A stretch of DNA of 36,390 nucleotides from Methanobacteriota archaeon (lineage in GTDB: Archaea; Thermoplasmatota; Poseidoniia; MGIII; CG-Epi1). Every line of letters begins with the position of its first letter. Positions within the stretch are counted from its first letter, which is position 1. Positions 16,032 to 28,426 of this stretch are shown in pieces. A model generated the notes under the pieces. That model had not been told where the DNA came from, did no database searches, and was given only the letters and a program-made list of their open reading frames with translations. The stretch covers positions 15,153 to 51,542 of the forward strand of contig PBGF01000015.1 in assembly GCA_002718915.1 (NCBI GenBank), in the 5' to 3' direction. A program made the position numbers and the translations under genes.

Positions 16032-18968
16032 ATGAAGAAAGGTATCAATTCTTTTTTTGTTTCGTTCATTGCCTTGATTTTGGCAACACCAATTGCTGGA
16101 GTAACCAGTACATTTACTTTTAGTGAATCTCTTCTTTCATCAAATGAAATAGAAGATTATTCACGTTCTAGCTATGCAGTAGATATAGATTTTGCAGGTG
16201 AGAATACAGGATATGAATCAATTACGCGTAATGAAATTGTAACTTTTGCATTTTTAGTTTCTAATTTAGGGACTATGGATGATACTTATGATTTAGAGAT
16301 ATCTTGGGAAGAAGATGGAGCTGGCTGGTCTGGAGAATCAGAATATGAAACAGTTTCTGTTGTATCGCAAGGTCAAGAAAATGTTAATTTTAGTTTTCAA
16401 GCACCAGTACAAAATGTGTATGATAATTCTCAGATGCAATACACCTTAGAAGTTACTTCACAGAATGATTCAGCTAGCGATTCCTTGAACCAAGTTATAG
16501 ATATAGATATGATTTATGCCATAGATGTTGAATTAAAGCAAGGAGATTTTAAACAAGCTAAAAGAGGAGAATCAGCTTCCTATGTTGTAACTTTAACGAA
16601 TAGAGGAGATAATGCAGATACTTTTGGTGTTGAAGTAGGAGATTTACCTAAAGATTGGTCCGCCTCCGCCAGTGTATCAGAAATTTATCTAGAACCGAAT
16701 GATTACCAAGATCTTACAATGGAAGTTATAGTTCCAGATACTGCTGCAGTTGATGAATATGCAATAATTCAAATAATCGCTAGAGTTCAGGAAGAGGATT
16801 ATGATTATATCTATGGTTATGGAAACACAAATACTACCGCTGAAGATGGCCGTACATATGGCGTAGATATTGTATCAGATGCTGAAGCTAAACAAATTAT
16901 TCCTGGCGGAATGATAATTTACGATATTTCAGTCACAAATGATGGTGATGAATCAGATTCTTTTAAGCTACATTTTGAAGATGTTTCTGAAGAGGGTTGG
17001 GTATCTAATTTGAGTCAATATGAAATAGATAATTTAGGCCCAGGAGAATCCTTCAGTTTAGTTCTGGCAATTTTTTCACCGGAAGATGCCAAAGAAGATG
17101 ATTGGTCTTTAACAAAAATTCATATTTATTCAACAAATAGAGAACAATTTGGTGATGATTTAGTAGTAAATACATCAGTAAGATTACCAGTAAGAGATGT
17201 GTCCTTATCAACATCAGAAGATAGTATGAGTGGCAATCCAGGTTCAATTTTAACATATATAGTTTCAGTTACAAATACAGGTTCAGATCCTGACGACATT
17301 TATCTGGGTTTTGAAATTTGTGAATCGTGTAATGCATGGGTAGTTTCACTGAGCAAATATATTATCGAAGATCTTAATGATGGAGATTCAGAAGATGTAC
17401 AATTTATTGTGGAAATTCCTTCTTCAGCAAGAGATACTGATGAAGCTATTTTTTCTGTAACTGCAGAATCACATGATGATTCTTCAGCTAGTGCAGAGTT
17501 GGCCGTTACTTCAACAGTTAATACAGTTTTTGATCAATATGTAATGGCTTCAGTAGTACCAATAATGTATCCTGGAGACAGTAATCAATTTAATATTTCT
17601 ATAACTAACCAAGGCAATAGTTATGAGAGTTATAAATTTAGTAAAGGTTCAGGAGTTCCAGAGAATTGGAAGTTTGAAGATACCTTAATTTACGAAACCG
17701 AATCCTTAGAACCATATGGTGGTAATGAGATGTTTGTTCTTCCTTTTGAGATTCCAGATGATGAAAATCCAGGATATTATAATTTCACAATATATGTCAA
17801 ATTATCTTCATCAGGCATTAAAGTAGAGACCATTGATTTATCTGTTAAAGTTGAATATTATGCAGATTTCACAATAGTTATAGATTCTACACAATTAGTA
17901 GGAGATCCTGGAGTTACACATCAATTACCAGTTACAATAATTAATAGTGCAAATGCCGATGAAGAAATTGATTTTATTGTTGAAGGCCTTCCATCAACTT
18001 GGACATACTGTGTCTCGTTCAGTGGAAACTGCCTGAACTCATTGAACGTTGCTAAGGGAGCTACATCTGATTTTATTTTGGAGATTACAACTGCAGAAAA
18101 TGAACCTGCAAATGCTAATGGAGTTTATCTAAGTTTAGTGGGCACTTCATCTTTGAATAATAAATTTGAAGTTCGTCAGAGTTTTAAGATATTGACAAAT
18201 CCAACATACCTTCTTTCTGTTACTACTCCCTCAGATACTAAAACAGGTTCATCTGGAGATACGATTCCTTTCCAATTAGTTATAGAGAATTTAGGTAATG
18301 ATGTAGATCATGTTAACTTACCATTTCCACAATTACCCTCAGGTTGGATTGCAACATATACTGAGTCTTCCTTTAGTTTACAACCTATGGAATCTAAAAC
18401 AGTTTATCTGAATGTTGATGTTCCAACGAATGTCTTTGGAGGTAACAATACAATTACTTCGAAAGTATCATCAGATCAATCTGGAGAAACAAGTACGTTA
18501 GTTTTCACGGTTTTCGTTGAAGAAAAAGCAGATATAGATGTTGAATTGAAAACAACAGCAGGCGATGTTACAGCAGGCACACAAGGTAATTTTAAAATTT
18601 TAATTACAAATAATGGAAATACAGTTGAAACTTTAACCTTAGTAATGGAAGGCAAGAGATCCTCTTGGTTTACTTTGCCAAAAGAAACAATTTATTTAGA
18701 ACCTGGAAGTTATGAGGAAATAATGGTTGAAGTTCGCCCACCAGTTACTCAAGCAGCTTCAGATACCTCTGCTACACTTAATGTTACTTTGAGTAGTGAT
18801 TCATCTAAATCAGTAAAGCTTAGTTTGCCATTTTCAGTTTTAAAATCTGATTTAATTACTGAAGAAGTAGTAGAAGAGGAGGAGGAATCACTTTTACCTT
18901 CATTAAGCTTAGTTAGTACCATACTAATCTTATCACTTATTTCATTTATTCGTAAAAAGAAATTATAG
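16032..18968 (+). CDS. Large cell-surface protein with eight NEW3/CARDB-like repeats
   Basis: A 978-aa protein with an N-terminal signal peptide ('FFVSFIALILATPIAGVTS'). About eight beta-sandwich repeats of roughly 100 residues follow. Each has a core like 'VTNTGSDPDDIYL', then a Trp-containing turn ('PKDWSASAS', 'PENWKFED', 'PSGWIATY'), and then a strand with 'LEPG' or 'LGPGES'. The end is an acidic stretch, a helix ('SLSLVSTILILSLISFI') and a basic RKKK tail, the arrangement of archaeal membrane anchors or of archaeosortase-type sorting signals. Several N-x-S/T sites are present. It is probably a major envelope component and a candidate target of surface glycosylation. The strong TATA box supports high expression. 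Confidence 0.8.
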   Translation: MKKGINSFFVSFIALILATPIAGVTSTFTFSESLLSSNEIEDYSRSSYAVDIDFAGENTGYESITRNEIVTFAFLVSNLGTMDDTYDLEISWEEDGAGWSGESEYETVSVVSQGQENVNFSFQAPVQNVYDNSQMQYTLEVTSQNDSASDSLNQVIDIDMIYAIDVELKQGDFKQAKRGESASYVVTLTNRGDNADTFGVEVGDLPKDWSASASVSEIYLEPNDYQDLTMEVIVPDTAAVDEYAIIQIIARVQEEDYDYIYGYGNTNTTAEDGRTYGVDIVSDAEAKQIIPGGMIIYDISVTNDGDESDSFKLHFEDVSEEGWVSNLSQYEIDNLGPGESFSLVLAIFSPEDAKEDDWSLTKIHIYSTNREQFGDDLVVNTSVRLPVRDVSLSTSEDSMSGNPGSILTYIVSVTNTGSDPDDIYLGFEICESCNAWVVSLSKYIIEDLNDGDSEDVQFIVEIPSSARDTDEAIFSVTAESHDDSSASAELAVTSTVNTVFDQYVMASVVPIMYPGDSNQFNISITNQGNSYESYKFSKGSGVPENWKFEDTLIYETESLEPYGGNEMFVLPFEIPDDENPGYYNFTIYVKLSSSGIKVETIDLSVKVEYYADFTIVIDSTQLVGDPGVTHQLPVTIINSANADEEIDFIVEGLPSTWTYCVSFSGNCLNSLNVAKGATSDFILEITTAENEPANANGVYLSLVGTSSLNNKFEVRQSFKILTNPTYLLSVTTPSDTKTGSSGDTIPFQLVIENLGNDVDHVNLPFPQLPSGWIATYTESSFSLQPMESKTVYLNVDVPTNVFGGNNTITSKVSSDQSGETSTLVFTVFVEEKADIDVELKTTAGDVTAGTQGNFKILITNNGNTVETLTLVMEGKRSSWFTLPKETIYLEPGSYEEIMVEVRPPVTQAASDTSATLNVTLSSDSSKSVKLSLPFSVLKSDLITEEVVEEEEESLLPSLSLVSTILILSLISFIRKKKL

Positions 18969-18971
18969 GAG
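18967..18971 (+). promoter_or_regulatory. Shine-Dalgarno-like AGGAG before the Nop5-type gene
   Basis: AGGAG overlaps the stop of the surface protein gene and ends 10 nt before the TTG at 18982. It is one of the few clear ribosome binding sites in this window. An in-frame TAA at 18973 blocks any upstream extension, so the TTG is the first usable start. Confidence 0.5.
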
Positions 18972-18981
18972 TTAATTAATT

Positions 18982-19692
18982 TTGAAATCTGTAACTGCAG
19001 ATGACGAAGAGGAGATAAATAATGTAATTTCCATACTCAGAAAATCTGAGGAAGATAATTCTGAGAAAGAATTTCCTGAAATAGAAATCAAATATTTAAG
19101 AGAAGCCAGCATTATACAAACACAACAAAAAATTTTGGATTCTTTAACTCTAGATAAGCATCTAATTCAAACTATTCAAGCTTTAGATGACGCTCATACG
19201 AGTCTCAACTTAATTTCGGAACGATTATGTACTTGGCAGGCCCATACAACTGGAGAATCTAGATTAGTTATTGATGAATTATTGAATAAGAAATCATTAC
19301 AGCCGCCGATTTCTAATCTCAAACAAACATATCTTCAAATCGAAGAATTGATAAAAATTTTATCTAATCACATTGATGAAGAAGCTCCTAAAATTTTCCC
19401 ATCCATGGTAGAATTACTAGATTCACAATTAACTGTTAGGCTAGTTTCTTGTGCAGGTTCATTAGCAAAACTTGCACGTCTTCCTTCATCAACAATACAA
19501 TTACTAGGTGCAGAAAAGGCATTGTTTAGACATATGTCTGATGGTTCACTTCCACCAAAACATGGGATATTGTATCAGCATCCTTCTGTAAAGAGGGCTC
19601 AAAGGAAAAATAAGGGAAAGGTGACTCGCTCATTAGCTTCTAAGATAGCAATAGCGGCAAAGATAGATTATTATCGGGAGAGAAATGAGTAA
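18982..19692 (+). CDS. nop5: Nop5/Nop56-type RNP core protein, N-domain missing
   Basis: A 236-aa protein of the Nop family, which in archaea forms the scaffold of C/D box sRNPs that guide 2'-O-methylation of rRNA and tRNA. The coiled-coil part is recognisable ('LIQTIQALDDAHTSLNLISE', residues 61-80). The Nop domain is clear at about 140-232: 'LPSSTIQLLGAEKALFRH' (167-184), 'PPKHGILYQHPSV' (191-203) and 'GKVTRSLASKIAIAAKIDYY' (212-231). Normally about 100 residues that bind fibrillarin precede the coiled coil; here there are about 35 acidic residues. The 'HFPEL' segment usual after the coil is replaced by 'HTTGES'. The lysine-rich tail is also absent. Fibrillarin, often adjacent, is not here. 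The gene overlaps DUF368 by 8 nt. Confidence 0.82.
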   Translation: MKSVTADDEEEINNVISILRKSEEDNSEKEFPEIEIKYLREASIIQTQQKILDSLTLDKHLIQTIQALDDAHTSLNLISERLCTWQAHTTGESRLVIDELLNKKSLQPPISNLKQTYLQIEELIKILSNHIDEEAPKIFPSMVELLDSQLTVRLVSCAGSLAKLARLPSSTIQLLGAEKALFRHMSDGSLPPKHGILYQHPSVKRAQRKNKGKVTRSLASKIAIAAKIDYYRERNE

Positions 19693-20602
19693 TAGTACCA
19701 AATTTGATTTTTCTACTTTTCGTAATGGTTTACTAATGGGAATGGCTGATGCGGTTCCAGGAGTAAGTGGTGGAACTATAGCATTAATATTAGGAATTTA
19801 CAATAAATTAATATTCTCCCTATCCCATTTTTTGAATTATCTTAAGAAAAAGTTTCCTTCAAAATCATATAATCAATTTGTGAAATCTTTCCAATTCCTT
19901 TTTACATTAGGATTAGGTATGCTTGTTTCTTATTATGTTATTACCAAAATATTAGTAGGTTCCGAAAATCAACCAGGATTATTACTAAAATCCTCAACAG
20001 CACCTTTTATTTTTTCACTTTTTTTTGGTTTAGTATTGTCAAGTGTTAAAGAACCATGGCAAAGAGTTAAGGAACGAACAGTTAGTCGTTATGTTCTTTG
20101 CTTTACAGGTTTTTCCTTAGTTTTACTTTATACTAATTTATCATTAAATAATGAGGGAGGTAATTTTATTTTAGTAATTAGTGGAGCACTTGCACTTACA
20201 GCAATGTTATTGCCAGGAATTAGTGGTGCTCTCGTACTTTTGACACTTGGTCAATATACAGTGGTAGCAAATGCAGTTCATGATTATAATTTTAGTCTTC
20301 TTTTCTATTTTTTGAGTGGGGGGCTAATTGGTTTGTTTACCTTTGTACCATTTATGAATTTTATGCTAATAAATTTTAAAGAAGATGTAATGTCAGTATT
20401 AACTGGTTTAATGCTTGGATCATTAGCAACACTTTGGCCTTGGAAAGAAGCCTATGATTCTAAAGGCGTATCTCCCAATTTAGGAATAGGGCAAGTATTT
20501 GATAATTTTGAATTAGTATCAATAATAGTAACAATTTGCTTTGGATTCCTTGGTTTTACCTTATATTTAGCTTTGAAAAATCTAGAAAAAGAGATAAATT
20601 AG
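19685..20602 (+). CDS. DUF368 membrane protein, polyprenyl-phosphate transporter family
   Basis: A 305-aa integral membrane protein with about eight helices. It carries the two related DUF368 motifs, 'ADAVPGVSGGTIALILGIY' near residue 20 and 'AMLLPGISGALVLLTLGQY' near residue 180. Bacterial DUF368 proteins (PopT) have been linked to returning undecaprenyl phosphate from the outer to the inner leaflet. In this archaeon the substrate would be a dolichol-type carrier phosphate; that is inference. UppP (32823-33629), a flippase and two GT4 genes in the same window fit a lipid-carrier cycle. The ATG overlaps the end of nop5 by 8 nt. Confidence 0.85.
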   Translation: MSNSTKFDFSTFRNGLLMGMADAVPGVSGGTIALILGIYNKLIFSLSHFLNYLKKKFPSKSYNQFVKSFQFLFTLGLGMLVSYYVITKILVGSENQPGLLLKSSTAPFIFSLFFGLVLSSVKEPWQRVKERTVSRYVLCFTGFSLVLLYTNLSLNNEGGNFILVISGALALTAMLLPGISGALVLLTLGQYTVVANAVHDYNFSLLFYFLSGGLIGLFTFVPFMNFMLINFKEDVMSVLTGLMLGSLATLWPWKEAYDSKGVSPNLGIGQVFDNFELVSIIVTICFGFLGFTLYLALKNLEKEIN

Positions 20603-28270: not shown

Positions 28271-28347
28271 GCCGCTGTAGCTCAGTAGGTCAGAGCATCC
28301 GGCTGTTAACCGGACGGTCATCGGTTCGAATCCGATCAGCGGCGCCA
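28271..28347 (+). tRNA. tRNA-Asn (GTT), CCA encoded
   Basis: A complete cloverleaf can be drawn. The acceptor GCCGCTG pairs with CAGCGGC, the discriminator is G, and CCA is encoded at 28345-28347. The anticodon stem TCCGG/CCGGA encloses the loop CTGTTAA with anticodon GTT. The T arm is ATCGG-TTCGAAT-CCGAT. No intron is present. The next tRNA starts only 2 nt after the CCA. Confidence 0.96.
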
Positions 28348-28349
28348 TG

Positions 28350-28426
28350 GGGCCCGTAGCTTAGTCTGGTGGAGCTCCCGGCTCATAACCGGGCGGTCGT
28401 CGGTTCAAATCCGGCCGGGCCCACCA
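28350..28426 (+). tRNA. tRNA with CAT anticodon (elongator Met or Ile2), CCA encoded
   Basis: The acceptor GGGCCCG pairs with CGGGCCC, the discriminator is A, and CCA is at 28424-28426. The anticodon stem CCCGG/CCGGG encloses CTCATAA, giving anticodon CAT. The T arm is GTCGG-TTCAAAT-CCGGC. The first pair is G-C and there are no three consecutive G-C pairs of initiator type next to the anticodon loop, so it is not the initiator. Elongator Met and the modified-C Ile2 cannot be separated from the sequence alone. Its last 22 nt overlap the PfkB kinase gene on the opposite strand. Confidence 0.94.

Follow-up and report, generated by a model that had tools for sequence, protein, structure and literature searches.

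A lineage-wide Nop5 without the fibrillarin-binding N-domain in MGIII archaea, alongside an altered fibrillarin and a tRNA-Trp intron guide

The window (i.e., the whole 36,390-nt stretch of DNA analysed, G000:C15:15153-51542, from an 881 kb, 55% complete MAG) carries a nop5 gene whose product lacks the fibrillarin-binding N-domain, as stated in the original prediction, and this trait is common to all 18 nop5 genes found in Marine Group III (MGIII), a group of marine archaea. Since MGIII also has L7Ae, a conserved guide RNA with compensatory changes, and a fibrillarin whose catalytic tetrad is intact, methylation has probably not simply been lost in this lineage. We give about an even chance to the reading that MGIII operates a stripped-down yet selected box C/D RNP, in which fibrillarin has come off the N-domain arm and gains access to the guide-target duplex through a different contact. 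Of the two outcomes originally proposed, plain loss of methylation is thus disfavoured, while a new way of docking (or an uncoupling of fibrillarin) still appears likely.

The window nop5 gene and its product

The features of the nop5 locus are as follows (the equivalence of both codons was derived from an offset of 123 in the structure-match residue ranges):

18968..18971, + strand: GGAG, Shine-Dalgarno-like site, 10 nt 5′ of the nop5 TTG (from the sequence)
18973..18975, + strand: TAA in the nop5 frame, closing that frame upstream (from the sequence)
18982..19692, + strand: nop5 (TTG start), encoding a 236-aa Nop5 without the fibrillarin-binding N-domain (from the ORF, PF01798, structure matches, and tree)
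18982..19092, + strand: residues 1–37, weakly conserved N-terminal tail in place of the N-domain
19093..19392, + strand: residues 38–137, coiled-coil (dimerisation) region with shortened tip
19393..19689, + strand: residues 138–236, strongly conserved Nop (L7Ae/k-turn RNA binding) domain, without C-terminal helix and Lys tail
19498..19500, + strand: codon of Q173, equivalent to Q296 of Sulfolobus solfataricus Nop5
19627..19629, + strand: codon of R216, equivalent to R339 of S. solfataricus Nop5, in an invariant alignment column

The in-frame stop that had been noted at 18973 is the TAA listed above, and no upstream extension was missed. Moreover, the 978-aa ORF upstream of nop5 ends at 18968, 13 bp before the nop5 start, and thus leaves no space for a frameshifted N-domain, while the combination of TTG start, GGAG, and upstream stop recurs in three sister species.

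Pfam PF01798 matched residues 11–234 (E 1.6e-35), and AlphaFold modelled the coil and Nop domain confidently (mean pLDDT of the model 87.5), in agreement with the conservation claimed for both, albeit that the coil region (conserved and predicted to be helical) has a shorter tip. The 37 residues preceding the coil, in contrast, were predicted to form a single helix (residues 6–24) with zero strands and no domain, so that no complete N-domain is predicted within the first 40 residues. In the alignment, the window Nop5 also lacks the coil end (i.e., the HFPEL equivalent), some 26 coil-tip columns, and the C-terminal helix and lysine tail; the losses of HFPEL and of the lysine tail had both been noted before. 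Foldseek ranked archaeal Nop5 first and an N-terminally truncated Nop56/58 (3nvi) third. The NCBIfam equivalog NF011121 was not discriminating, since it scored the window Nop5 at 159 bits (vs. a cut-off of 452) and an N-domain-bearing MGII Nop5 also below that cut-off (167).

Nop5 proteins of MGII have 100–105 residues before the DKxxIQ motif (vs. ca. 55–68 in MGIII genus g1), and the full-length ones carry at their N-terminus a conserved domain (WxDWRxAxVxDxxGxIxD...), of which the first half is absent from the window Nop5. However, the N-domain of roughly 100 residues assumed for archaeal sRNPs is not universal. In Archaeoglobus fulgidus Nop5p (1nt2), which resembles the window Nop5 in overall size and coil length, residue 53 of 1nt2_B aligns with window residue 38, leaving ca. 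52 preceding residues where the window protein has 37. This A. fulgidus protein was crystallised with fibrillarin and, of the structurally characterised matches, is the one with the shortest Nop5 N-domain, whereas the window tail has no predicted domain.

The tail itself had been described as some 35 acidic residues. Its length (37 residues) and net charge (–7) support this for the window, but the acidity is not conserved in the near relatives L013 (+3) and L014 (0), and a role for an acidic tail is unsupported. With net charges spanning –9 to +3 across genus g1, an acidic tail serving as a conserved docking peptide was rejected as a general mechanism. More broadly, the tail varies in length, charge, and sequence, and is the least constrained part of MGIII Nop5. 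A first-strand-like TPIGTY motif is kept in two species, and in the sister-genus genes L016 and L019 the first start codon leaves only ca. 9 residues before the coil.

Despite these reductions, the protein is recognisably an archaeal Nop5 (aNop56/58; Pyrococcus furiosus 4by9/3nmu and S. solfataricus 3pla), with which it shares the coil and Nop domain, the GAEKALFRH and PPKHG motifs, and the RNA-contacting Gln and Arg. In S. solfataricus, Q296 and R339 contact stem II of the box C/D RNA (PMC5389607). Their equivalents Q173 and R216 are both invariant in the MGIII alignment and, since these k-turn-reading residues are kept, L7Ae, Nop5, and guide should still be able to assemble. This expectation is supported by 3nvi, which has the same architecture as the window Nop5 and, by its title, still binds L7Ae and box C/D RNA; the truncation in 3nvi was engineered in the laboratory, whereas that of MGIII is natural and lineage-wide. 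Prp31 of the U4 snRNP likewise combines a coil and Nop domain without a fibrillarin-docking domain, and binds the k-turn of the L7Ae-family protein 15.5K. However, Prp31 is spliceosomal and eukaryotic, and shares only 13–16% identity with the window Nop5, the archaeal Nop5 matches being far stronger. TasA of TIGR-Tas, finally, is a solo Nop protein (PMC12045711) that uses a guide RNA, but the protein of MGIII groups among the archaeal Nop5 sequences, and no TIGR repeat array was found near the window nop5.

Nop5 matches were obtained in 17 of the 21 MGIII family genomes, all of them MAGs, and every one of the 18 frames was short (193–281 aa), compared with mostly at least 329 aa for the MGII frames among the matches listed. 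The MGIII sequences are monophyletic (support 96/91) and joined to those of MGII as sisters (97/94). With dN at ca. 0.03 and dS at ca. 0.37 for the closest pair, MGIII nop5 is under purifying selection. An N-domain profile that at E <= 1e-14 recognised an N-domain in 36 of the 39 MGII genomes returned no separate or split N-domain and no second full-length Nop5 below E 0.02 in any of the 21 MGIII genomes, so that both are excluded within assembly completeness.

Some further nop5 genes deserve mention. One MGIII genome (G017) carries two N-domain-less copies (L003 and L019), which could stem from two strains in the bin or from a real duplication. Outside MGIII, the Nop5 of four Woesearchaeota (L069, L081, L110, and L114) and one Micrarchaeota (L105) begins at the coil, with 24–29 residues before DKxxIQ, apparently as a result of independent losses. 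In Methanogenium (L067, L068, and L072), an intermediate state was observed, in which the N-domain of Nop5 is short (82 residues precede DKxxIQ) and the neighbouring fibrillarin frame is shortened (201–203 codons) but has kept its VYGE segment. An archaeal-type Nop5 on a contig labelled Nomurabacteria, a CPR bacterium (L074), groups with DPANN and is probably misbinned.

Fibrillarin in MGIII

Fibrillarin was found in 15 of the 21 MGIII family genomes, including that of the window, where the gene is cut by the contig end. It retains the catalytic residues K31, D123, K150, and H188 as well as the SAM motif, and is confidently predicted to adopt the fibrillarin fold. The part ahead of the conserved Trp has nevertheless been trimmed to 24–29 residues (vs. 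39–53 in MGII), three strands being predicted in this stretch, and the VYGE segment is lost. Moreover, none of the 11 complete MGIII sequences retains T17, E29, E38, R100, or R103 (L066 numbering), whereas these residues are near-invariant in 59 other archaea and kept in 8/8 MGII sequences (with Ser for T17 in one); R40 and R112 are mostly replaced in MGIII.

In the RNPs studied so far, fibrillarin contacts only the N-domain of Nop5 (PMC7089733) and is positioned through Nop5 (PMC5389607). The sequence comparisons suggest that fibrillarin changed in step with the loss of the Nop5 N-domain in MGIII. Both losses are not strictly linked, however, since Woesearchaeota combine an N-domain-less Nop5 with an unaltered fibrillarin: at the four loci mentioned above, a canonical fibrillarin is encoded nearby that retains every residue lost from its MGIII counterpart. 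The gene order differs as well: nop5 and fib are adjacent in MGII, but in each of the 13 MGIII genomes that have both they lie on separate contigs. In the open-licence literature, no precedent was found for fibrillarin activity without the Nop5 N-domain, nor anything on MGIII fibrillarin or an archaeal Nop5 without N-domain that matches the present case.

L7Ae and the tRNA-Trp intron guide

Like fibrillarin, L7Ae is encoded in the window's genome (G000:C20:4726-4995, 98 bits), and the MGIII lineage shares L7Ae, fibrillarin, and a C/D guide with the archaeal box C/D sRNP. A first guide search used a pattern taken from the known tRNA-Trp intron guide (i.e., box C′, a guide able to base-pair with the anticodon loop, and box D) and matched four sister-genus MGIII genomes with an identical 22 bases. 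These matches were tRNA-Trp genes with an intron containing boxes C, D′, C′, and D and a TGCAGG/CCTGCA closing stem. Of the 14 genomes in the window's genus, 10 were found to carry the guide with a covariance model built from the sister-genus MGIII and MGII tRNA-Trp introns; with this model it was unseen in G000 (the window's own, at 55% completeness), G001, G004, and G006. The search for C/D sRNAs that had been proposed for the window's genome was therefore positive for the genus, not for this genome itself.

The pairing of the guide is strictly placed: in 33/33 aligned sequences, C34 faces the nucleotide five positions upstream of box D (the D+5 register). Of the guide-target cells, 97.9% are paired, and compensatory changes occur both at nucleotide 37 and at one intron position, while the k-turn stem shows compensatory changes at three of its six pairs. 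By our reading, the D′ guide would put position 39 at the methylation site, and the predicted C34 and 39 match the known double target of the tRNA-Trp intron guide (PMC7994747). The host intron, the C34 register, and the predicted position 39 are common to the MGIII guide and the known tRNA-Trp intron guide (sR50 / Haloferax pre-tRNA-Trp; Rfam sR3). Alternatively, the conservation of the guide could reflect folding of the pre-tRNA instead of methylation.

The sister-genus intron scored above the gathering threshold of Rfam sR3, whereas the introns of the window's genus scored below it. The latter (L307–L311, L313, and L317) differ from sR50/sR3 by a terminal box C AUGAUUG and a box D AUGA, which by our reading would place U-A where the k-turn core otherwise has a G-C pair. 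Such boxes escape scans for the standard C/D consensus.

No other four-box C/D guides were found in full scans of G001 (1.18 Mb), an assembly without tRNA-Trp and rRNA, although these scans would overlook any guide with weak boxes. Canonical C/D patterns did yield matches in MGIII, but the repeated ones that were examined read as coding sequence (e.g., M-M-[CSA]-Y-P-D-K-N-D), and the remaining matches were regarded as uninformative. Six MGII genomes (G021, G027, G028, G032, G037, and G041) gave a best match to the tRNA-Trp intron model of only ca. 72 nt and may lack the Trp intron guide despite having an N-domain Nop5. G001 further contains a tRNA-Tyr gene with a 41-nt intron (L208:16860-16978).

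Candidate arrangements of the MGIII box C/D RNP

In current models of the box C/D RNP, the Nop5 N-domain carries fibrillarin, which swings on it to the substrate. By analogy with known C/D RNPs, the MGIII Nop5 dimer would still clamp the k-turns that L7Ae binds in the intron guide, and this guide in turn would pair with pre-tRNA-Trp and present C34 (and position 39) for 2′-O-methylation. Fibrillarin, either tether-free or re-tethered, might then be captured on the duplex together with contacts to the coil or Nop domain of Nop5 or to L7Ae, this being the weakest step of the proposed scheme. That RNA-guided 2′-O-methylation can run without the Nop5 N-domain tether, the trimmed MGIII fibrillarin being recruited by a contact unlike that in any studied C/D RNP, is a tentative proposal to which we give slightly less than an even chance. 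MGIII is a natural experiment, combining a lineage-wide loss of the N-domain with a fibrillarin changed in step and a covarying guide that has been kept. This points either to a dispensable tether, with the enzyme being placed by another contact, or to a non-catalytic role of the guide RNP.

The latter corresponds to a less likely though serious alternative, in which fibrillarin became uncoupled (as a free or differently partnered 2′-O-methyltransferase) and the L7Ae-Nop5-guide RNP was kept for folding, protection, or splicing of pre-tRNA-Trp, in a Prp31-like manner. Such uncoupling would fit the loss of the N-domain next to a retained Nop domain, the Prp31-like architecture of the window Nop5 and its matches to Prp31, the separation of nop5 and fib onto different contigs, and the lack of other four-box guides in the G001 scans. 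However, it would not call for the exact D+5 register at C34 with its pairing restored by compensatory changes, nor for the retention of the catalytic tetrad and fold of fibrillarin.

We regard it as distinctly unlikely that the RNP works as usual, with a small and diverged protein (i.e., a split N-domain) that was missed by the searches providing the docking in trans. Nop5 N-domains diverge fast enough for a search model to miss one, and a good many of the small genes in MGIII lack a Pfam match (e.g., those of window proteins 1–4), but the profile that performed well on MGII gave nothing significant in the 21 MGIII genomes. The conserved N-terminal and helix residues lost from MGIII fibrillarin would, moreover, be unexpected if docking still relied on the original surface.

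Quite improbable is a miniaturised docking, in which the Nop5 tail of 37–48 residues, as a vestigial domain or short peptide, would have kept its hold on fibrillarin. The predicted helix 6–24, the TPIGTY motif, and the A. fulgidus precedent (only ca. 52 residues in a Nop5 crystallised with fibrillarin) speak for it, yet the poor conservation of the tail in charge, length, and sequence, and its near absence from L016 and L019, argue against it.

An assembly or gene-calling artefact hiding the N-domain, or a TIGR-Tas-like protein, as might be suspected from a 55%-complete MAG and from TasA being a solo Nop protein too, is refuted in practice by the 18 concordant MGIII sequences, the 13 bp spacing to the upstream neighbour, the missing repeat array, and the tree and best matches to archaeal Nop5, and has a close to negligible probability.

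Finally, two observations concern the surroundings of nop5 in the window. The gene 3′ of nop5 (19685–20602) overlaps it by 8 bases and encodes a VCA0040-like undecaprenyl-phosphate translocase, which is an unusual gene to accompany that of an RNA scaffold. Further downstream, two tRNA genes (28271–28344 and 28350–28423; Rfam tRNA, 76.8 and 65 bits) lie in tandem, five bases apart.
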